Below the pieces are notes generated by a model. That model worked only from the letters and a program-made list of their open reading frames with translations, did not search any database and was not told the origin of the DNA. Below, piece after piece: positions 15,938 through 54,563 of a stretch of DNA of 64,000 bases (the first letter of the stretch is position 1; each line of letters opens with the position of its first letter). Position numbers and translations under genes: made by a program. The stretch lies in assembly GCA_020055645.1 (NCBI GenBank), contig CM034546.1:42408001-42472000 (forward strand). Direction: 5' to 3'. This stretch comes from Tomocerus qinae (Eukaryota; Arthropoda; Collembola; Entomobryomorpha; Tomoceridae).

Positions 15938-16639
15938 CAGGGTTACCAGATATACTTAAATGGAAAGTATTATACTTAAATTGGGCCCTATACTTAAAAT
16001 ACTTGCAAGTATTTTAAAATACTTAAATTATACTTAAATATACTTAAATCAGCTAAAATCTGGGACAGTGAAATAACTTGAAGTCCTATAATATTAGAAC
16101 ACACTTTGTTATCTTTCAGATACGTTTACTAATTGAAATTTTCTCGCGCTTCGCGCGAATTTAAGTATTTTTGTCTTTAAATCCTTTTTAATAGTCAAAA
16201 TTGTCTTCCGATTTCAAAGGAAATTTATTAATAACTTATCAGTAGGGTATAAATAACAAACCTCTCTTCCTCAACTATGTCACTAAACCATTAAAGCTAA
16301 ATTACTCAAAATTCTTTAAGTCTTTATTGATCAGTTTTGAAGTTGATTTTCAAAAATTTCTCGCGCTTCGCGCGGATTGGTATTTTCTCTTGATTTCCTC
16401 CTTCATATATTATGAAGTAAAATGCAAGGATATCTATTCCAAGATACGTAATTTACTTATTTTTGCTTCTTTTTCAATAAAAAACCGTAAATTTGTTAGC
16501 TGCACTCATATGATTGCGCCAAATACGGCTGTATGACATTTATGAGCATTTAACAAGACGCGCCCGAAGGGCGCGGGTTGGTAAATAGCTTTTGTTGGCC
16601 AGGATACTTAAATTCGTTGAAGAAAATCTGGTAACCCTG
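15938..16639. mobile_element. hAT MITE, CAGGGTTACCAGA ends (TSD CATACATA)
   Basis: The 702-bp element has terminal repeats CAGGGTTACCAGA and TCTGGTAACCCTG and perfect 8-bp duplications CATACATA at 15930-15937 and 16640-16647. The termini are rich in TACTTAAAT. The interior holds two CGCGCTTCGCGCG palindromes (16145-16157, 16362-16374) and CGCGCCCGAAGGGCGCG near 16559. A relative lies at 22527-23198. A short frame (16327-16536) has a similar counterpart in that relative, but it looks like repeat homology and not a gene. Confidence 0.9.
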
Positions 16640-22526: not shown

Positions 22527-23198
22527 CAGGGTTACCAGGTATACTTAAATGGCAAGTATAATACTTAAATTAGACCCTATACTTAAAATACTTAAATTAT
22601 ACTTAAATATACTTAAATGAGATAAAATCGGAAAAAATGGTTCATCCTTAAGTATTAGAACACAATTTGTTAGCGTTCAAATATGTTAAAATTTCGAAAT
22701 TTTCTCGCGCTTCGCGCAAATTTCAATATTATATGTGTTGATCGCTCCAGTTTAGGTGTCAAAAATCTCTGTCAATTTCGATGGAAATCCATTAATACTT
22801 AATCAGTGGAGAATAAAAGCAAAAAGTTCTTTTCCTCAACTATTGTACTTAACCGTTATGGTAAATTACACAAAATTCGTCAAATCATTATTGATAAATT
22901 TTGAAGTTGAATTTCAAATTTTTCTCGCGTTCGCGCGAATTTGTACCTTTTTATGATAACCTCACTTATCTCTGTATTAATATGCGCGAATATTACTTTC
23001 AAAATACATTGTTTAAGCTATTTTTGTTTCATTTTTTCCAAAACTGTAAATTTGTTAGCTGCGCACTTATGATAGCGCCAAATGCGGTTGTATGACATAT
23101 AAAAAGATTTAATAAGACACGCCCGAAGGGCGCGGGTTGGTAAATGGCTTTTGTTGGTCAGGATACTTAAATTGGCTGAAGAAAATCTTGTAACACTG
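22527..23198. mobile_element. Second, older CAGGGTTACCAG hAT MITE
   Basis: The 672-bp relative of 15938-16639 starts CAGGGTTACCAGGTATACTT and ends TCTTGTAACACTG. It has the same TACTTAAAT-rich ends, decayed CGCG hairpins (22706, 22925) and the CGCCCGAAGGGCGCGG segment. No clean 8-bp duplication is left (CATTCTGC versus ATGTCTGA), which fits its greater age. Confidence 0.75.
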
Positions 23199-28180: not shown

Positions 28181-30812
28181 TAGGGCATCCAGTCTCGATA
28201 GCTTTCCGCCAGTCCCGGGAAATGAGACTTCCCGGGAAATTCCCGGGAATTTCCCGAGACTGGAATAATGTAAAATAATAGTAAAAACGACCCGAATTTT
28301 TTTTAAAAAACCGCGTTTATTTAATTACTTGTAAGATGTGCATTACATTTAGTGGTAATTTTATTATATATTCCTAAATGTAAAATAAATAAAGCATTAA
28401 TCCTGTTGGAGTTTTCATACCCACATTAGAAGTTATTCATTCTGAAAATAAAATCGTAAATAGCAGAGATGGTCGAGTGTTTCATCTTTATAACTGGATC
28501 TTATCTTGTTGCATAAGTAACCACTTGAAGAAAATGCCCGTTCCGACTCCACACTGGTTGGAACAATTCCCATCAATAAATCATATGCGACGGACAAATG
28601 AATACCCCGTTTTCCACCGGCTTCAAAAAGCTTCATCTCTTGTTTGATAGTTGACAAAAAAGATTTTGTTGGTTGAGTTTTTTCAATGTGATTCGACGAT
28701 AATGCTTTTGTTAATGCTAAATCTAATTCTTTGTGCGATTCTGTCTTGCTACTTTGCAATTTGCTCACCTCCGTCAATTCAGTAGATGCCAAATTTTGAA
28801 TAGATTTTGAAGGTTCATTTGAGGTTTCCAAACGAATAATTAGGTCTTTTAAACTAGTGGCAATTTTAGTGAATGTTACCGGGTTAGAAACCTCATCTTC
28901 TTCATCATTGTCGGACAAATACTCTCCCTTGTGAAGATATTGCAAAATATCGGATAAAATGGTTCTCCTCTGACCAATCCGAATTTTTAGCGCTTCATGT
29001 AATTCCAGTGACAGTGCAGAGTTTTGCTCTTTCAATTTCCGCAAAGTAAAATTAAATGCAGCATCCGCTGTTATCAAATTGCCATCACGCTTGCAAAGCG
29101 CCTCAACGATAGCTTGTATTGGTTTAAGAGCTTCAACAATGTCAGAAATTCTTTCAATTTCCCATTCCTCAAGAGTAATAGCAGGAAAGACATCCACCAA
29201 AGCCTTCTTGATACAATTTCTCAATTTGTAAAATCTTTCCATCATGATAGCTAGACTACTCCATCTAGTTTTAGAATCAAGCAGCAAACATAATTCGCTT
29301 CCAAAATCCGTTTTAACGAATTTTTGTAATGTTTCATTTTTTAAAGGGGATTTCTTAAACTTTTTGACAATGCTTCTCACTTTATCAATGATGGGATTGA
29401 GCTTTTCGGAATTGCAGATTTGAGAATTTTCTTCGTCGGTATCGCTATCGTAACTATCAGATTGTATAATTGTATATCTGAGCAGCCGTCTGAATCAGAT
29501 TCATCTTCATTTTCGTCCTCTTCGCGGTCACTAATCTCACCCTGAATTTGAACAGTTTCTGATTTTTTCTTATAAAGAACATCCAACACTGCTAATTGTA
29601 TCCCATGTGCAAAACATAATTGTTGACTGCATGGAGCAAGTTTCCCGATTTTAGTCATTACAGATGTCCCATCCGTTATGACGCTGACAATATCGCTTTC
29701 CAAAGACAAGTCGTACTCATCTAGTTTCTTTTGGACCAATTGAAGACATTTTTCCGCGGTCATGGAGCCGACTATCCGAACTAGACCCAAATTCCATATT
29801 TTTGTAGGTTTTCCATGGAGAATAAGGTTCATAAATCGTCTATTCCTTGTAGAAGTCCATTCGTCGAACGTAACACTAAATTTTTGACCGTTTAATTTCA
29901 ACAGAGTTATCGTAGTTTTCTCTCTCTCTCGAATTTTCTTAGAGAAATCGACCACTAATTTCTGTATGGTGGTCGCCGATTTTGGGAGTTCTGAAAATCC
30001 ATTTGCTTTTAAGGCATCCCTTAAATCACTTGATGTCACAAATACTCTAAAAGGCAAACCGTCTTTTGCTGTCATTCGAGCTAAGGTCTGGGCCATGTCT
30101 TTTTCCTTTTTGACGAAAAATCTTGAAATGTCACCCCTGTCACATTTTTTCGGCAAAGAGCGGCAATCGGCATCTGCATTTAAATTTTTTTCTTAATTGT
30201 CATTTATAAATTTGGTCACAAAATGTGTACTGTTTGCTTTGTGAAATTCGTATAAAATAATTTCATTCTTAGGTAAGAAACGTTTATATTACCCGACATT
30301 TCTTCATTTTCTGTTGCTTTCCTTTTTATCAATTCGATAAAATGGATGGCTTTCAGATGCTTGTGGAGTCCTGATGTATTTCCTCCAGTACATTTTATTG
30401 ACTTTAGACACGTTTTAATTTTGCATTTGGCCGAATCTCCTTCTTTCTCAAAATAATGCCAAACAGATTTATTAGTGTCCGATTTACTAGTTGACGACTT
30501 AGCCTTTTCACCTTTACTTGACCAATCTTCACCTGTTTGGTTGGCCATTTCTTTGTCCCTTGGCGAAAATTATTGTAAAATGAAATTTGAAGTTACACAA
30601 TATAGCTCAACTCATTCCACAGTCAAATCAAAGCATTGGTATTTAAATTTAAAAATTTTAAATTTCGCGTTAATTGACCAAGGCAAACAGACCTGATCAG
30701 ATAATGCTTAGATTTTCCAGAATTTCCCGAGACTGAGGCAGCCAGTCTCGAGAAATAGGTCTCGAGACTCCCGGGAATTCCCGGGACTGATTTCTCGAGA
30801 CTGGATGCCCTA
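28181..30812 (-). mobile_element. Near-autonomous hAT transposon (TSD ATTAATAA)
   Basis: The 2,632-bp element has termini TAGGGCATCCAGTCTCGA / TCGAGACTGGATGCCCTA and perfect 8-bp duplications ATTAATAA at 28173-28180 and 30813-30820. Subterminal zones are packed with CCCGGGAATTCCCGGG and GTCTCGAGAC palindromes, typical transposase-binding regions. It encodes a BED-finger hAT transposase on the minus strand that is broken by one frameshift. Confidence 0.95.
28433..30548 (-). pseudogene. hAT transposase with BED finger and hATC domain (one frameshift)
   Basis: Exon 1 (30548-30293) carries a BED zinc finger (SVWHYFEKEGD..., C..C...H..H ending LHKHLKAIH). A GTAATA donor and a TTTAAATGCAG acceptor join it in phase to exon 2 from 30173. 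The RNase H-like core shows the first Asp in FSVTFDEWTS and the second in VITDGTSVM. An acidic insert lies near 29470-29560. Around 29440-29480 the frame shifts, and the rest continues in another frame to 28433 (KLNPIIDKVRSIV, EEWEIERISDIVEALKPI). It ends in the hAT C-terminal dimerisation domain (PTSVESERAFSSSG, LDHLCYLRFYF). Apart from the shift no stops interrupt it, so inactivation is recent or the shift is an assembly error. Confidence 0.9.
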
Positions 30813-31013
30813 ATTAATAAGATAGGAAACTTTAGACAAAGTAAACAGTCGCTCTCTGGCTAGAACGTATTTTAAGAACATGACCATGAACACTGCAGTG
30901 TTTAGTACGTCGTAGTTGTATAGATTTCAAACTGACACTGAACTGTACATAGATTATAAAACTGTGCCAAGTAAAAATCAACTTGAATCGAATTATTAAA
31001 ATACATTTTCAAA

Positions 31014-34000
31014 ATGATTATTTATAAACGACTGTTTATTGGAATTATTGTGTGGGCCCATTTTTACACACCAAGAATTATTTCTGCTGGAAAATTAGAA
31101 CGATTGATGTCAATAGAGAAGGATTGTCACATTAACATAATTATTTACGAGCCTCACTCCACTGAAACTTCAGCTAAATTGGAGGAGTTAAGGCAAACAA
31201 AAATTCCGTTTTCCCTTACAAATGTTGATACATTGAAAGGATTTCCAGACAGAAGTTATGAAAATACGACACAATGGGAAACGGAATTAAATGAATATTA
31301 TTGGGTGCCATCGTGTCCTTCGAGAGAAAATGTTAATAAGTACATTTCTCATCGGGTAACTTGCATCGTGTATTTTTCTGTCAACGTGAATTCCAGCCAC
31401 TTCATTGATTTGATATTCACGAAATATATTACAAAGTTCGTGGGAGGTTATTTCTGGTTCAATCCATATCATAATATCAGAAGATTTTTGTCGTCAATTT
31501 GTATTGAATCACAAAAAAAATTCGAGGAATATAAGAGCACTTATTTTCTGGTCCAAAAAACAGATCTGGGTTCCATGGAAAACAAAACCAAGTTATTAAT
31601 TAATATGAGAACACAATTTTCTGGATTAGAAGGGCATTATTTTGTGCACTCAATAGACGAAGACGACGGCAGGGAGTTTATTATTTGTGGGGAACTTCAA
31701 CATACAGTAATATGGAGCAATGGTTTAATTACTTCTAGGGACAGTTTAGTGTTTTCACACAATACTAACACTGAAGAAAATAATTTTGATCGGACATACT
31801 TAAAGAAAATCCGTACAGAAGCGGAGTTGCAAAGCAACGACAAAAAGTGTATATCCGTTGGTCGTGACGGAGATGTCCGAAAATTTAATAGGCCAGGATT
31901 AAATAGCGAAAGGTTTTCATCAGCTTTCAAAGGAGGATTGGTCGATGTATCAGACATATTATCTTTGATTGCTGTAGAGAGTTCTCCTAATACTACAATC
32001 AATTCATTTGAATGTTTTTATCTAACGTATCTTAAATATGGTGTTTCAATAGAGAATAAGAAATATATTGATGTGAAGGAGATTATCATAACAGGGACCG
32101 ACAGTTACAATTATATATCTTGTGTGGTTCTGGAGGACGCGAGTCTGTCGTTCTACGGCTACATCCGTCCATTTGATCTCTCTTCTTGGATTGGGATTCT
32201 GTCAACAATATTGCTTGTCACATTATTTTTCCAATTGACTTTATATTTGAAGCATAACCAAATCTACCAGCAGGGCCGGTGAGGTTTTTATGATGCCCGG
32301 GCAAAAGCTATTTTGATGCCCCCTTTTACTAACTTTAATGTGACTTCAGATTTTATTAAGAACAGAAATTATTTGTCGCACAAACTTAGGTTAAAATAGG
32401 GTAGAAATAGAAAACCAAATTTAAAGCTGACACCAAACGTTAAGACGCTTATGTTGAGACTGTTTGGGTTGAGATTGTTTGGGTTGAGAGAGACGGTTTG
32501 GGTTGAAACGGTTTGGGTTGAGAGAGACGGTTTGGGGTGAAACGGTTTGGGTTAAAAGAGACGGTTTGCGGTGAAACGGTTTGGGTTGAGACGATTTGGG
32601 TTGAAACGGTTTGTTTGAGACGGTTTGGGGTGATACAGTTTGGGTTGAGACGGTTTGGGTTGAGACTGTTTGGGTTGAGACGGTTTAGGTTGAAACGGTT
32701 TGAGTTGAGAGAGTTTGGGACTTGGGTTGACGCCGTTTAGGCTGAAACTGTTTGGGTTGAGACTGTTTTGATTGATACTTCTAGGGTTGAGACTGTTTTG
32801 ATTGATACTTCTAGGGTTGAGACTGTTTTGATTGATACTTCTAGGGTTGTTACTGTTTGGGTTGAGACTGTTTGGGTTGATACTTTTTGGGCTGATACTG
32901 TTTGGGTTGATACTTTTTGGGTTGTTACTGTTTGGGTTGAGACTGTTTGGGTTGATACTGTTTGGGTTGAGACCAGTTTTATTTGACATGGTATGGGTTG
33001 ACACGGTTTGGAAGGAAAAAGTTTGATGGCGGAGGAGTATGAAATAAATTTTGTTATTAATTAAATCATACCTTAAAGAAACCCACAAATATATTGTACT
33101 ATATTTCGGTTCCAATTGTAATAAGTTATCTAACAAGCTACTGTACGACTTTGTACGATGAATAGAACGAAATTTACATCAAGTTTTAATTACTTTTAAG
33201 TTTTTCTCCCACTTTCTTTGTCAATGGAAGGCTGTAACCTATTTGGTAGTGCCAGCAAACCTGAAGGGTTTCCATCAAGCTATTGCACGACTTGTTATAT
33301 GAATCGTTACATCAATTTTCAATTATTTTAAGTTTTTAAATCATATTACTTATCACAGAAAGGTTACAACCTATTTAGTAGTGTTTGTGGACTTGTCAGA
33401 TTTTAATCGAGCTATTGCACTACTTTATACAATGAAAAGATCTGACGTTACGTCGATTTTTGGTTATGTTAACCTGTTCAGCAATGTGGCAAATCATGTT
33501 AGCTGTCGAACATGCTTTTACACGACGTGGTTATGGTACCCAGAACCAAAGTTACGTCGATTTTTAGTAAAATTTGATCTTTAAACCCCACCCCTGGTCA
33601 GGGGGTGTGACCGATCTTGCTCATTTACAAACTCTGTTTCATGTTTTACTTTTTACTTCAAAAAGCTACCTTGTAAATTTGAAGTGACTAGTTTAAACCG
33701 TTCGAAGGCTAGCGTGAACAGGGATTAACGGACGGACAGACAGACAACAGAAATAGTATTCGCATAAAGAGAAAAAAAACCTTTTCTGAATAATGATCAT
33801 TGTTAGAAACAAGTTAAAATCGGATTGCGTGAATGATAGTAAAAGGGAAACAAACTAATTAGTGGTGTTTGTTCCCGAGAAAGGCTTTGTTATTATAGCT
33901 TCTTTAAAATACTAATGTATATTTCAAATGGGTGGAAAAAAAATAATTTTTTTCGTGCATTTTGCTGCCCCCTTGAGCTTGATGCCCGGTGCCATCGCCC

Positions 34001-35164
34001 CGCTCGCCCCCCCAATTCCCCGGCCCTGTCTACCAGTTCATCTTCACTTGCTGGGCTTATGTCGTCTGCAACAATTGCGGATTACCCAGAAAAATAGAGA
34101 AATATTTCTGGATTAAAATAGTACTGGGTCCATACCTATTGATGTTCATCGTTCTTACTTACGGCTATGCAGGCATTGTCATCACCGATTTGGTTGAACC
34201 CAGGGCTACAAGACAAATCGAGTCTTTTCAGGAAATTGCAACTTTGGACGATATTTCAGTTGTCAGTCCACTTCAGCATGTAATTTACGAACCATGGTTA
34301 ATGGATAGAATTTTCCAGGTTGGAATATTATATAATTACAATTGTTACGTATATTTAAACGAAACACTAAATGAAAATAAAACGCCCTTATCGGAATATT
34401 TTGAAAAATGTGATTCTCTTTCGGGAGTCCTCACATTTGAAAATGTGTCAATCAAAGTTGTGGAGTCAGCTTTGGAGTTAAATAACCGAATTGGTGGTAA
34501 ACATATGTTTTCGCTTGTTTGGGAGTTATATTTTTACCCTACATGTCTTAAAAAATTTGAAGCTATTATCAATAAACTTGGTTTTCCACCGATTTCCCCA
34601 CAGCGATCTTTTCAGCAATGGATTTCTCAATGTAACAGATCAGTTTTTGTAGACAAACAAAGCAGAATTCATCGATTTTTAAACGATTCTTACTGGGATA
34701 TTAAAAAGGAGATCAAACCCAAACGAAAATTATACTTTGGAAATCCCGATAACAATACTTTTACTTTTGGCACGACAGTAAGAAGCGGATCAGTCTTCTA
34801 TCAAGAATACATGAAGGGAAAACTTTTTTATTTGTTACAATCAGGAATCCACGACAAATGGATAGATGTCTTCAATCATTTTAATTTCACCCTCTGTCAA
34901 CATTGTTTCGATAGAGACCAACCACGTCCTTTGACTTTTTATAATTCCAACATTTTCACCATTTTTGCTATTTATTTTGGTTGTGTCATTTTGTCTTTTT
35001 TGGAATTCTTATGGGAAGTTAAATGTGCCTTGTTTCAGTTTCACATATTTACTGACCTGATCTCGAAACTTAAAACATTATTTTTACATGAGAACCGAAA
35101 ACACACAGCAGCAGGTATTTTAGTAAATAGTCGACAGATTTCAGTAGAGTCACAGAACAATTAG
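31014..35164 (+). pseudogene. Ionotropic receptor-like gene split by a hAT insertion
   Basis: Two open halves, 31014-32270 and 34037-35164, join in phase (419 + 376 codons including stop, about 794 residues) when one TSD copy is counted. The first half has a signal peptide, a long extracellular/ligand-binding part, and TM1 after the conserved PFD..W (IRPFDLSSWIGILS). The second half has the membrane segment before YGYAGIVITDLVEP (the position of the IR Y.T.....L..P motif), the second ligand-binding lobe and a last membrane helix (IFTIFAIYFGCVILSF). IRs are cation channels of the glutamate-receptor superfamily used in chemo-, thermo- and hygrosensation. This one is divergent with no orthologue I can name. 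With the insertion present, translation would stop 12 bp inside it at TGA 32280-32282. Confidence 0.85.
32271..34028. mobile_element. hAT element inside the IR gene, with minisatellite (TSD TCTACCAG)
   Basis: The 1,758-bp element has ends CAGGGCCGG / CCGGCCCTG and perfect 8-bp duplications TCTACCAG at 32263-32270 and 34029-34036. Near both ends are GATGCCCGGGC and GATGCCCGG phrases. At 32440-33010 lies an array of ~15-bp units (GTTTGGGTTGAGACG and variants). At 33120-33440 are about three diverged ~155-bp repeats (CAAGCTATTGCACGACTT...). Long frames in the array (NPNSNNPKSI-type or VWVETVWVDT-type) are by-products of the repeat. No transposase. Confidence 0.93.
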
Positions 35165-38192: not shown

Positions 38193-40169
38193 TCAACTGC
38201 TGTACATAAAATTAACCGGAAGATGTTTTAACGGGACACTCGACACCATGATTACGTCTACGTCATTCACCGGAGACACACGATTTCCTCTTCGAACATC
38301 TTTCGCGACGGTTTTCAGTTTGCTTAGCAGATTAGCAACAAGTATTTTCAGCATCAATCTAGAGTGCCACGACCATTCCAGAAGAAGAGCGATGAATGAT
38401 CCAAGTAGCAAGTATCCACAAACGAAGAAAATTGTATGAATCTTCATGGACAGACTAATAGGCAATGTCTGAGATTTTTTATGCTTCAGTTTTGAATGGG
38501 ATATTATATCTTCCAAACCAAGAATGAAATCGTATTGTTCATTGAAATATTTTAGAAAACCTCTCTCTTGCATGACTTGGAAATATGATTGGAATTTATG
38601 ACGGTAGCAATTGTCGAATTTATAAGCCCATGGTATAGCGAGATCTGTTTCCTTTACAATCAGGCAAATTCCGTCTGAAGATACTTTATATGGTATTAAG
38701 GGCACAGTGTGGTGACTTTTCTCTCTGTAATATATATGGAAAAGTTTCATTGAGAAGTTAGTCAACATTTTCCAAGAGAAGGTCCAGTAGCTCATGTTAT
38801 TATGTTCAGATGTTGCATCGTACTGCCAATCAAATCTGAAGACACTTGAATTCTTTTTGTCCACAATTTTATATTTTTCAAACAATTCGATGTTATCTTC
38901 GTCAAAATTCCGCAGTCTGTCTTTCTGCAACAACATCTTATATCCATTTTCCACGAGATCTTTTAAGTCCGCAAATTGTTTTCTGTCTGGAGGAGCAATA
39001 ATCTCGCTTGTTATCCACGTTTCATATTGAGTAGCAATTACAAATCCCATGGACACAATTACCAAATACAAAACGTTTCTCCTTTTATTGGAAACATTCT
39101 GATTTAAAAGGACGGCTATTGTGGATACAAAAATAAACTTTAATTTCTTGTAGAAAGTAGAAATTCTAAAGCCTAAAGCATAAAATGAAATCGGGAATAG
39201 CGAAAATATCAGCCACCAGCAATAATCATCAAATGTATTTTGAATCAGAACTGTCAAAGGGATGTCCACCAATCGAGGGCTGGCTTCGCAGTAGTATGGA
39301 ATGTAATCTTCAAAGTACTCAATGAAAAGAGTTTCATACCATTGTACAATATAGATGTTGTATTCTATCAACGAAATGACTCCACATTGACGATGTTCGT
39401 TTTTTAGGCTTTCATATCGCCTTGCATATAAGGCTGTGAAGTTGAATCTATCAGCCATCAATTCAACAGCTCTCACTAAACTTGTACAGTTTAATAGATA
39501 AGTTTTTGCCATTGAATGGATTTTACACTCTGGCATTTCTTTAGAATTGTCGAACTGAAAATAGCTAAAAAATTCACCAATTTGAATGCCATGAAGATTC
39601 CCGTTGAAAGTGCTCCAAACTCTTTCCCATTCCTCTTCGGAGTCTTGTGTTTCAATTGAATGCAGAGTTAAGGATTCGCCCTTCGGATTGTAGAGAATTG
39701 TCGTGTAAATCGAATATTCGTTTTCAGCTTTCATTGCCAATATAAAGAGAGGAGCCATTAAATGTTGAATGAGGTTTGATCGCCACTCTGGATTCATCCA
39801 TTTCAATTCATCTTTGATGACGATTATAAATCTCGAACCGCGACGGTTTATTTCTTTTCCAAAAACCGTTTTAAGATATTTCAAAGCAGGGTCTGGCTCC
39901 ATTAGAATATTGACAGTGCAGAAACTGCTAGAGAGATCGCGTGGGCTATCTTCATGACGACCGAAGAGAGTTTTATTATATTTGAATGTTGCCAAGGTCC
40001 ATGGTTGGCCATTGTGGTTAGACAGGATAAAATCTGTCTGCCATTCGGATTGATGGAAAGTAATCATGTTAAAATCACAATTACTATAGAACGACAAATT
40101 TCGAAAGCAGCTGATGTTATTTATAATTATGGAAATTAAAAATGGCACAATTGGATACATGAAATACAT
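38193..40169 (-). CDS. Divergent ionotropic receptor-like protein (IR), single exon
   Basis: A 658-codon intronless frame begins at ATG 40169. It has an N-terminal hydrophobic signal (IVPFLISIIINNISC), then an extracellular region of ~300 residues. A membrane segment follows (WWLIFSLFPISFYALGF), then the helix ending in ATQYETWITSEIIAPPDRK, which fits the IR Y.T..IT..I..P motif before the second ligand-binding lobe. The last helix (IFFVCGYLLLGSFIALLLEW) precedes a basic cytoplasmic tail. The pore loop is poorly conserved, common in divergent IRs. Expected role: a cation-channel subunit in sensory neurons; ligand unknown. It faces the split IR at 31-35 kb across the palindrome. Confidence 0.85.
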   Translation of the reverse strand: MYFMYPIVPFLISIIINNISCFRNLSFYSNCDFNMITFHQSEWQTDFILSNHNGQPWTLATFKYNKTLFGRHEDSPRDLSSSFCTVNILMEPDPALKYLKTVFGKEINRRGSRFIIVIKDELKWMNPEWRSNLIQHLMAPLFILAMKAENEYSIYTTILYNPKGESLTLHSIETQDSEEEWERVWSTFNGNLHGIQIGEFFSYFQFDNSKEMPECKIHSMAKTYLLNCTSLVRAVELMADRFNFTALYARRYESLKNEHRQCGVISLIEYNIYIVQWYETLFIEYFEDYIPYYCEASPRLVDIPLTVLIQNTFDDYCWWLIFSLFPISFYALGFRISTFYKKLKFIFVSTIAVLLNQNVSNKRRNVLYLVIVSMGFVIATQYETWITSEIIAPPDRKQFADLKDLVENGYKMLLQKDRLRNFDEDNIELFEKYKIVDKKNSSVFRFDWQYDATSEHNNMSYWTFSWKMLTNFSMKLFHIYYREKSHHTVPLIPYKVSSDGICLIVKETDLAIPWAYKFDNCYRHKFQSYFQVMQERGFLKYFNEQYDFILGLEDIISHSKLKHKKSQTLPISLSMKIHTIFFVCGYLLLGSFIALLLEWSWHSRLMLKILVANLLSKLKTVAKDVRRGNRVSPVNDVDVIMVSSVPLKHLPVNFMYSS

Positions 40170-41492
40170 CTTAAGACGATATTTGCTCCGCTATTTCTTT
40201 TCTAGTGAACTAATCGAAGTAAGAGAAAAAGTGTTCAGTTTTAAATAACGTCGCACTAAATGTTATATACCAAGCCAGTGAGGCACGACCGAGGTAGTGA
40301 AGGCTGGTATTTAATAGCAAAATAGCAACCAGAGACAAACAACTGTCAACTACAACTTTAAATCATATATACTATTACCTCCATACTAGAGGACCCAGCA
40401 AAGGGGTCTACCTAGCACCAAACGACAAGCTGATATCTGTGAGAAAATAATAAATGCCTTTTTGATGGAACTCAATGATGTCTTTCAGCCATAATATGTC
40501 ATATCATATCTTACTCATACTCATTACTACTCCCGTTTCATTATTGAACTACAAATGGAAAACGGCTTTGTTATGTTATTAGCCAAAAGTGGTCATCCAA
40601 ATCAAAAACGTTCAAAATGATAGCCCCAAAAAGCATGGGATATCATTTATGAAAGATTATTCTCTGAATCAAAAGATTCTTACCCCATAACTGTTTTGAA
40701 ACGTGTGTCAGCAAATTTTGGTAAAGCGATGGAACTTTACTTTTGGGTATTTTTGAAGTCAGGAAAGTTAATTTCATTTTTAGAAAACGTAGTATGAGCC
40801 CGAAATTAACAATTTTCCGTTAACATCAAATAACTTCAAATTTAGAAAATTTTGGCCATAAAAAGCCAAGGATTCAATGAAAATTCTTAAAATCGTACAC
40901 TATCCCCAGTCTCCTCTTATCTGAATGGTAATCTACGCACAGAGTATGACTACAGGCAGGCAGTTTACTCAGATATGTATGAATGTATACAACGATTCCT
41001 AAATGCTCCTATAAAACATACATTATAAGGACCTAATATATCCTGTAACGTGTTGACAAAAAGGTATTGAAAAAAAAACTTATAATAATTTTGTTGACCA
41101 AAAGGGGTTGACAAATAAGTGTTGACAATTTGGGGTTCTTCCACATGTAACTATGTGTCGCGGTGAGTGCTAAGGTAAGTCCAAAGACATAGATCTAATA
41201 ACAACAAGACTAAATTAGGATGAGCCTAATTACAAAATGCGCAAGGAATTATACGATGCATACTGCATAAATCATAGGGTAATATTATAAAATTTCGAAA
41301 TTAAACTAAATGTTGACGTGCATGTTGACGTTCCCCCAAGTACTCTTTGAAATTCAATTGCAAGGATTACTTAGGGGTTTGCCATAGTTACATGGAAATC
41401 TGTCGGTATTCTTGTATAACTGAACGCTGTATGTATGTCCGTATCGTTTTGTAATGACTCATAGACAAAACGTATGGAAAAATATCCATATA
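40170..41492. other. Gene-free interval
   Basis: No supportable gene. At 40270-40310 there is a short imperfect palindrome (ATACCAAGCCAGTGAGG...GAAGGCTGGTAT). At 41040-41130 TTGACAAAAAGG-type phrases repeat several times, resembling 27760-27860. Confidence 0.4.
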
Positions 41493-52003: not shown

Positions 52004-53830
52004 TTATTTAATAATAATGATTATCTTGTCGTCAATAATAATTTGACAACAAACAAGGCGGGGTTTTCTGTTGTTACTAGTCCTTAGTTCAACAAAGAAG
52101 CAGAAGCAGGTGAACATCATGAAAATAGCCCATATGACAAAAATAGAATAGAATTTAAAATTGAGGTTAAGAGGGATCGGCTGTTTCTCTCTCCATTCCA
52201 CCTGCTCTTTATGAACATTCGCCCAGAAATTGTGGCTAAAGTAGCTAATGTCGTACCAAAAGGCCAACAGTCCGGCCTCCAAAAATGTTGACATAATTTG
52301 TTTAACAGTTTCAATTAGTCCGTTTGAGAATTTCCAGCTTTTAGGGGCTGCTACAAAGGGTTTGGTGACATGATGGCACCGGACGGGCACTTCGGCCTTC
52401 ATTTCCGCGACTGCCCAAGCTAGAAAATGGTCTTCGACGGGAAACGCCCCTCTTTTGTGTACTTTTGTGGGGTACAGTACCTTTTCTTCGAAAGGGATAC
52501 CCACGGGATAAGTTTGGACACTCGAGTTGATTTTATCTAGCATTTTGGCGCTGGAGAAACCTTTGTAAAACATTGTGTCCTTGTTGTAGGCCTTCGTACT
52601 GGAATCCACTAAAACCGTGTAGCCACCTTCTAGCAATTCGGATAAATCTGAGAATATTTTTTTGTCTGCAGGCACAATAACATTGCTGGTGATTATTGTC
52701 TCGTACACTGTAGAGATGACAATTGCCATAAAAGCGACAACATTCCAATGGCGATTTCCCCGAATCGGATATTGGCGAAGGAGTTCTGAAAAACTGGCAA
52801 AAATAGAATTGAATAATTTTTCTAGAGTTTTTAAATGTTTCTTATGGTAATGGCGCCCAAACAGAATTCCAAGAGTGCAAAACTCTATAATTATGCAAAT
52901 CCATGTCGGAATGTCAAAAGGACTTAGCCATTCTGTCCATGAAGCGGCAATAAATGTGTATTTACTTTCACAGTAGAGCAATTTGTGAGATTTGTAAACG
53001 TGAACAAAATGTTGATGGGACTGCTCCACTAAATAATGATCTGTTTGAATGTAAATATCTGAAATACAGTCGCAGCACCCTTCGAAATTGTGACCAAAGT
53101 TCACAGTAAAGTTGAAATGTTTTGCCAAGTTGCCTAAAATGCGGTGATTGCCATAACACTCTCTAAAGTAAATGTGCGTGGCTTTCAGACAATTCGAAAG
53201 CTTGTTAGGGATCCAGTCCATGTAACAAACCCGCACTGATCTCCCATACAGATTAGTGTTGTGCTTTCTCCACAAAATTCTTAGATATTCAGAAGAAAAT
53301 GTCTTCTGATGTGTTTCGCTCAAAGAAATCCGACGCCAATTTGCTTTTTGCCAAAAGTATGGCAGCCACAATATTGACGAATTATTTTTTGTTGTCTGTT
53401 CAGCGACAAAAAAATTGAAGAAATAGGAGCGGTTTAAGTCATCGCTGATTTGTGCATCTTTTATATTGTATAAATTGTTCATAATTAATATGACGATGGA
53501 GTATTTTAGAAAAGGATAATTTTGGGTGAGGACGTCATAGGGCTTAGAAGAAGTTGTCCAAACGAAATTTATGATACACTTGTTTGATGCTTGTCTCACT
53601 TCCTTGTTAAATTCGCCCATAAATGTAATTTTCCACGTGCGATAATTATCAATCATGCTCGATTTGACCCAGTTTGTTAAAGTTTCGGAAAAGTTTCCAG
53701 AAAAGTACAAGGAAAATTCACATTCAGGGTCCAATTCACTCAATAAAACTTGTGCATTTAAAGTAAACAAGTGGCACAAAATAATCCAAAAAACAATGTA
53801 AAAGGCCGCGAAGAAAATATCCGATTTCAT
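52004..53830 (-). CDS. Divergent ionotropic receptor-like protein (IR), single exon
   Basis: A 608-codon intronless frame begins at ATG 53830, with a signal peptide (FYIVFWIILCHLFTLNAQ). The extracellular half contains RVCYMDWIPNKLSNC, the place of the first ligand-binding lobe. TM1 follows SPFDIPTWICII. The next helix, FMAIVISTVYETIITSNVIVP, carries the IR-type YxTxIT..I..P signature. A second lobe of ~150 residues and a last helix (SIFVIWAIFMMFTCFCFFVE) end in a short tail. It is the third IR in the window and shares this layout with 38193-40169, not close sequence. Likely a sensory cation-channel subunit, ligand unknown. Downstream lies the cystine-knot gene, convergent. Confidence 0.85.
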   Translation of the reverse strand: MKSDIFFAAFYIVFWIILCHLFTLNAQVLLSELDPECEFSLYFSGNFSETLTNWVKSSMIDNYRTWKITFMGEFNKEVRQASNKCIINFVWTTSSKPYDVLTQNYPFLKYSIVILIMNNLYNIKDAQISDDLNRSYFFNFFVAEQTTKNNSSILWLPYFWQKANWRRISLSETHQKTFSSEYLRILWRKHNTNLYGRSVRVCYMDWIPNKLSNCLKATHIYFRECYGNHRILGNLAKHFNFTVNFGHNFEGCCDCISDIYIQTDHYLVEQSHQHFVHVYKSHKLLYCESKYTFIAASWTEWLSPFDIPTWICIIIEFCTLGILFGRHYHKKHLKTLEKLFNSIFASFSELLRQYPIRGNRHWNVVAFMAIVISTVYETIITSNVIVPADKKIFSDLSELLEGGYTVLVDSSTKAYNKDTMFYKGFSSAKMLDKINSSVQTYPVGIPFEEKVLYPTKVHKRGAFPVEDHFLAWAVAEMKAEVPVRCHHVTKPFVAAPKSWKFSNGLIETVKQIMSTFLEAGLLAFWYDISYFSHNFWANVHKEQVEWREKQPIPLNLNFKFYSIFVIWAIFMMFTCFCFFVELRTSNNRKPRLVCCQIIIDDKIIIIIK

Positions 53831-54563
53831 AGCAAATATTCGAAAATAAATACTAAAATATTCGCAGTATGTTGAAATTCAAATTCTTTATTGCTAAATT
53901 TTATCAAGAAAAATAGGTTGGAACATGTCATTGCTCCTGTAAATCTATTTCAATCGATACCCGTCCACTATCCACTTTAACTCAAAAGTTACTAATGTAA
54001 GATATAATTATAATAAAATAAATTGTCTGTCAAAGACAACACCTGCTGCTGTCCATGTGCCATCCAATTACAGATGAGTGACCATTAGTTTGATTGTTTC
54101 ATATTTCTTTATCCGTTATGAAATTTTTTTATCTATGCTTAGATAAGCATTACTAAATTATTTACATATATATTCCGAAAATTCCGAAATAATCCAAAAT
54201 CCAAACCCTAAAATAGATTCTTATGTTCAGAACATGGAATTGTATTACATAGCTTAGCCCAGTTAGCATTTTGTTATATGCGGGCGGACCAGAAACAGAA
54301 CTAACATCACAAAGCTAAATCATGGTTGTCTTGGGATTTTCCTTTAACCTATGAGGATTTTGCTTTTCTCCCTTGTATCTTAAGGGGAACGCGGTAAATA
54401 CAGTTAGAACAGAAATTTTATCAGAACACTTTTCTCGGTTTTTCGTCTTTAGTGTTGTCTTTCCCTTTCATTTCGGAAATGTCACTTCCGAAAACATTTC
54501 CATGCTTACATATAACAGTTTAATATTATTGATAAAATAAATACACTAAACAATACATAAATA

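Follow-up and report, generated by a model that had tools for sequence, protein, structure and literature searches.

A long receptor-like reading frame of the collembolan Tomocerus qinae is divided by a transposon-like segment, and the locus raises the question of whether this segment is a young insertion that has disabled the gene or one whose effect is avoided by splicing, by excision or by an intact allele. We examined the locus within a 64,000-nucleotide stretch of contig CM034546.1 (positions 42,408,001 to 42,472,000 of assembly GCA_020055645.1), referred to here as the window, together with related sequences in the same genome. Our main reading, to which we assign a probability of roughly 0.92, is that a recent insertion of a non-autonomous hAT element disrupted a single-exon gene for a probable ionotropic receptor.

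Structure of the split gene and of the inserted element

An initial annotation of this DNA had described a clean insertion at 32263-34036 that splits the gene, and these coordinates, the target-site duplication (TSD) and both open halves are borne out (Table 1). The reading frames 31014-32270 and 34037-35164 join when one copy of TCTACCAG is counted, giving a frame of 794 codons and a terminal stop (795 with the stop) that contains no internal stop and, as had been noted, continues open through 35164. A TSD-flanked insertion necessarily returns to frame when a single TSD copy is counted; the clean in-phase interruption is simply how a recent insertion of this kind looks, and does not point to a selected phase. 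The upstream frame (30987-32282) enters the element, adds three foreign residues (QGR) and ends at TGA; besides the insertion, no other lesion of the frame was seen in the split gene. Paralogs align with the upstream part over its full length, and by eye it ends directly behind a hydrophobic stretch that is taken to be the first membrane segment. The downstream part, likewise read by eye and by analogy with ionotropic receptors, would carry the pore region and the second and last membrane segments.

Table 1. Features of the split gene, the inserted element and the neighbouring element (positions in the window)
Feature	Position	Strand	Description or basis
Second, unrelated hAT-like element	28181..30812	-	2,632 bp; 18-bp terminal inverted repeat (TIR) TAGGGCATCCAGTCTCGA, TSD ATTAATAA
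Upstream part of split receptor-like gene	31014..32270	+	419 codons; open frame, joined frame
TSD, copy 1 (TCTACCAG)	32263..32270	+	perfect match to copy 2
Non-autonomous hAT-like element	32271..34028	+	1,758 bp; ends, TSD, relatives
Left terminal repeat CAGGGCCGG	32271..32279	+	9 bp perfect
Best splice-donor-like site in 31014-35100 (CCG/GTGAGG)	32279..32284	+	simple home-made score
TGA of the element, terminating the upstream reading frame	32280..32282	+	open frame 30987-32282
15-bp minisatellite in the element	32453..32973	+	~34 units
Right terminal repeat (CCGGCCCTG on + strand)	34020..34028	-	9 bp perfect
TSD, copy 2 (TCTACCAG)	34029..34036	+	perfect match to copy 1
Downstream part of split gene	34037..35164	+	375 codons + stop; open frame

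The duplication and the terminal repeats had both been called perfect; this stands for the TSD, but for the repeats it is limited to a nine-base core, with 9 of 9 positions of CAGGGCCGG matching, 11 of 12 over the first 12 and little match beyond. No transposase frame was found in the element, whose sole ATG-initiated frame of at least 60 codons (145 codons, - strand) lies in the minisatellite. Almost one third of the element's length is taken up by this minisatellite. By DNA search the family of the element has at least 80 matches in the genome, and the 32-base left end of the element occurs 131 times in the genome with up to three mismatches, against 0 occurrences of a reversed control. Among the 12 other copies from the fetched family loci that had both ends inside the fetched stretch, perfect 8-bp duplications flank six, one further copy has a duplication with a single mismatch and the remaining five have 2 to 7 mismatches.

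The family also includes coding members. One relative (L075, at 24.02 Mb on contig C1) matches the first 36 bp of the inserted element at 97% and its last 70 bp at 86%, and contains a frame of 613 residues with DUF4371 (E 4e-20) and Dimer_Tnp_hAT (E 4e-10) domains; further coding copies exist. The ends of L075 are in an unusual orientation, within a rearranged tandem array with a unit of ~4.36 kb, and L075 is therefore not a clean autonomous copy. Because it combines matching ends with hAT transposase domains, hAT is the right superfamily, and the original assignment is strengthened both by this relative and by the 8-bp TSDs of other family members. Judging from these sequences, it is plausible that a coding relative supplied transposase in trans to the inserted element.

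Other transposons lie in the window and in one of the paralogs. The hAT-like element upstream of the gene (28181-30812) has a perfect 18-bp TIR and a perfect 8-bp TSD, and carries transposase-like frames on the - strand with matches to a BED zinc finger, DUF659 and the hAT dimerisation domain, all below the Pfam cut-offs. Other genome matches to this element cover just its ends (DNA search, 40 of 72 candidates scored). It was considered as the source of the inner element and rejected, as the ends of the two differ (TAGGGCATCC versus CAGGGCCGG). A paralog of the split gene, L040 (C1:7898500-7902500), is interrupted at L040:3089-3763 by a different hAT-like element of 675 bp that has 12-bp repeats CAGGGTTACCAG and is flanked by the TSD TTCTCCAG; here, too, once a single duplication is counted, the paralog reads on in frame as far as the fetched stretch extends. 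Relatives of this 675-bp element occur at 15938-16639 (88%) and 22527-23198 (75%) of the window. Positions 803-2911 are occupied by a frame that resembles a non-LTR retrotransposon and has domains for reverse transcriptase and endonuclease.

Receptor-like family, empty sites and constraint

The split gene belongs to a large family in which many members are single-exon. A search with the downstream half as protein query, in which 109 of 1113 first candidates were scored, returned 111 rows, a few of them pieces of one gene. Of the 110 rows other than the window itself, 75 have a match that is free of stops and part of a frame of 740 codons or more; the remaining 35 do not. Among the matches listed, contig C1 carries all but three of the 110 rows, and the nearest paralog of the downstream part is 71% identical. 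The nine intact paralogs used for comparison are single-exon.

The name of ionotropic receptor, given to the gene at the outset, receives partial support. Neither half of the split gene has a Pfam match at E 0.1, and a profile search of PDB sequences with the family found nothing at E 1. On the positive side, Lig_chan (PF00060) appears below the cut-off in four of the nine intact paralogs (best E 0.0053, 17.0 versus 30.8 bits), in a search that also brought up two unrelated families at E ~0.07, each in a single member. When the family was compared by hhalign with four single-exon Lig_chan proteins selected from this genome, the region spanning the first and second membrane segments aligned with a probability of 52.6% (E 1.4e-4). 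These similarities suggest that the split gene and its family are probably ionotropic receptors. A single-sequence structure model of the downstream half (mean pLDDT 40.7) was too poor for a structure search and was not used. Two further long single-exon frames on the - strand of the window, at 38193-40190 and 52004-53878, look by eye like additional receptor genes; a Pfam search at E 0.01 did not recover Lig_chan in them.

Paralogs provide a view of the unoccupied site. Nineteen receptor loci with 20 sites, which we selected from genome-search matches, were compared with a query of 150 bases from each flank. At 19 of the 20 sites the sequence is continuous across the insertion point and carries one octamer of the type TCYAYYAN; in two of these 19 the alignment contains two gap letters, placed beyond the 16 bases around the insertion point. 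At the single exception (L044) the query matched up to base 103 and again from base 248, with no match at the insertion point. The insertion region is ~90% identical between paralogs. Gene conversion was considered as the cause of this identity and set aside. Differences at four-fold sites are 0.25 and 0.31 in two windows of alignment there; other full windows give 0.29-0.48, so that those of the insertion region are at or near the low end. Amino-acid constraint accounts for much of the identity in this region.

The two halves of the gene differ in how closely they follow the family. Expressed as means over subsets of eight paralogs, the downstream half departs from 3.0 of 112.9 family-invariant columns, compared with 3-11 of 110-118 in the nine intact paralogs, whereas for the upstream half the figure is 13.8 of 97.0, the highest rate among the ten genes, the paralogs showing 3-13 departures of 94-104. 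Values of dN/dS against the nine paralogs are alike between the halves (0.38-0.50 and 0.29-0.44). The departures of the upstream half make a relaxation of constraint or a change of function before the insertion possible. The initial annotation had seen no lesion other than the insertion, a statement that is accurate for the reading frame but does not extend to the upstream half with its departures or to the second hAT-like element nearby.

Age of the insertion and alternative explanations

A sister copy of the inserted element lies ~89 kb away at C1:42349712-42351469, in opposite orientation, between different flanks and within its own perfect TSD, AAGCTATT. Over 1,757 aligned sites the two copies show no substitution, their only differences being two 1-bp indels. 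The 95% upper bound on their separation is accordingly ~1e5 to 4e5 generations if a mutation rate of 2e-9 to 8e-9 per site per generation is assumed. This lack of divergence limits the age of the later insertion only. The near-identical copy agrees with the earlier description of the insertion as recent. Repeats are prone to misjoining during assembly, yet two near-identical copies with different flanks and with perfect, different TSDs must be separate insertions, and an origin of the interruption as an assembly artefact is therefore extremely improbable.

In the sequence of events that we favor, a short non-autonomous element of the hAT family would have inserted by cut-and-paste into a single-exon gene, probably one for an ionotropic receptor, directly behind its first hydrophobic segment, and would have generated the 8-bp target duplication. 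A coding relative that shares the element's ends may have provided the transposase. Translation would then read three residues into the element and stop, producing at most a truncated protein of ~422 residues that lacks the pore, and the downstream part of the gene would still be open because too little time has elapsed for decay. An alternative order of events is that the upstream element (28181-30812) had already damaged the promoter and that the second insertion struck a dead gene. The perfect TSD of that element, its end 201 bp before the receptor ATG and the concentration of invariant-column departures in the upstream half are compatible with such a history, but a long-dead gene should show an excess of departures downstream as well, where only 3.0 of 112.9 columns are affected, and we regard this order as unlikely.

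A recent insertion may also be polymorphic, with an empty, working allele still segregating. The absence of substitutions relative to the sister copy and the undecayed downstream half both fit a very recent event; against this, genome searches that scored the best candidates found one copy of the locus in the assembly and no empty allele or haplotig, the next long matches being 73 and 79% identical. The ~1e5 to 4e5 generations allowed at the assumed mutation rates would also be enough for fixation. Polymorphism is accordingly a serious possibility, to which we give somewhat less than even odds, and the insertion is a good candidate marker for presence/absence variation. Function could alternatively be restored in some somatic cells by precise or near-precise excision. 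Elements of the hAT superfamily do excise in general, but excision usually leaves footprints that can disturb a reading frame, and we consider a rescue of this kind very unlikely.

The initial annotation had also raised the possibility that the element is removed as an intron, in which case the receptor might still work. Several features are suggestive in this respect. The top donor-like site of the region, as ranked by a simple score, begins at the last base of the left terminal repeat, and an acceptor-like site follows a C/T-rich stretch at the end of the second TSD copy (34036). In addition, six independent intron gains are reported for intronless IR expansions of a dipluran (PMC6938034). 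However, joining the donor at 32279 to the acceptor at 34036 results in 8 surplus bases and a frameshift. A scan of donors in 32200-33900 and acceptors up to 34100 with the same type of score yielded only four pairs that keep the frame open, all of which shorten the protein (by net 15, 18, 39 and 41 codons), and the best of them deletes the conserved stretch directly after the insertion point. The nine intact paralogs and the 75 long frames are moreover single-exon. Removal as an intron thus loses its appeal, since the obvious pair shifts the frame and the open pairs sacrifice coding sequence, and a functional new intron appears most improbable on these sequence grounds. Many copies of the element family have a splice-donor-like GTGAGG or GTAAGG at the end, although the search pattern itself selects for these. 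One may speculate that a hAT family with a donor-like end, a C/T-rich right end and a duplication ending in AG could seed introns in intronless receptor expansions, the copy in the split gene being a newborn intron that is not yet frame-corrected; we hold this idea to be a long shot.

Comparison with known systems

The locus is a fully readable case of a young transposon removing one member of a large receptor-like family. Its paralogs serve as a reference for the empty site, and a sister copy of the element lies not far away. The gene loss that it represents is of an ordinary kind, and knowledge of hAT elements and of receptor turnover is left unchanged.

Non-autonomous hAT transposons, of which Ds of maize is an example, include deletion derivatives and MITEs. 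The inserted element resembles them in its 8-bp TSD, its short TIR beginning with CAG, its lack of a transposase frame and the presence in the genome of a coding relative with matching ends. It differs by its 15-bp minisatellite, and no distinctive mechanism was seen in it. A likeness to introners can also be drawn, as some introner families bear the TSDs and/or TIRs of cut-and-paste DNA transposons (PMC9860276), and the inserted element shares these marks. It appears to differ from introners in that every frame-preserving route in the splice-site scan costs coding sequence.

Large receptor expansions with many pseudogenes offer the closest comparison at the level of the gene family. One report counts 901 of 2,424 intronless IRs as pseudogenized in Campodea augens (PMC6938034), and another counts 393 of 897 IRs in Blattella germanica (PMC6175461). 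The family of the split gene is likewise large and mostly single-exon with many broken members, and against the background of so large a family the split gene therefore looks like a case of ordinary pseudogenization. The split gene has one young lesion, and what sets it apart from those expansions is that this lesion is a transposon with its hallmarks.
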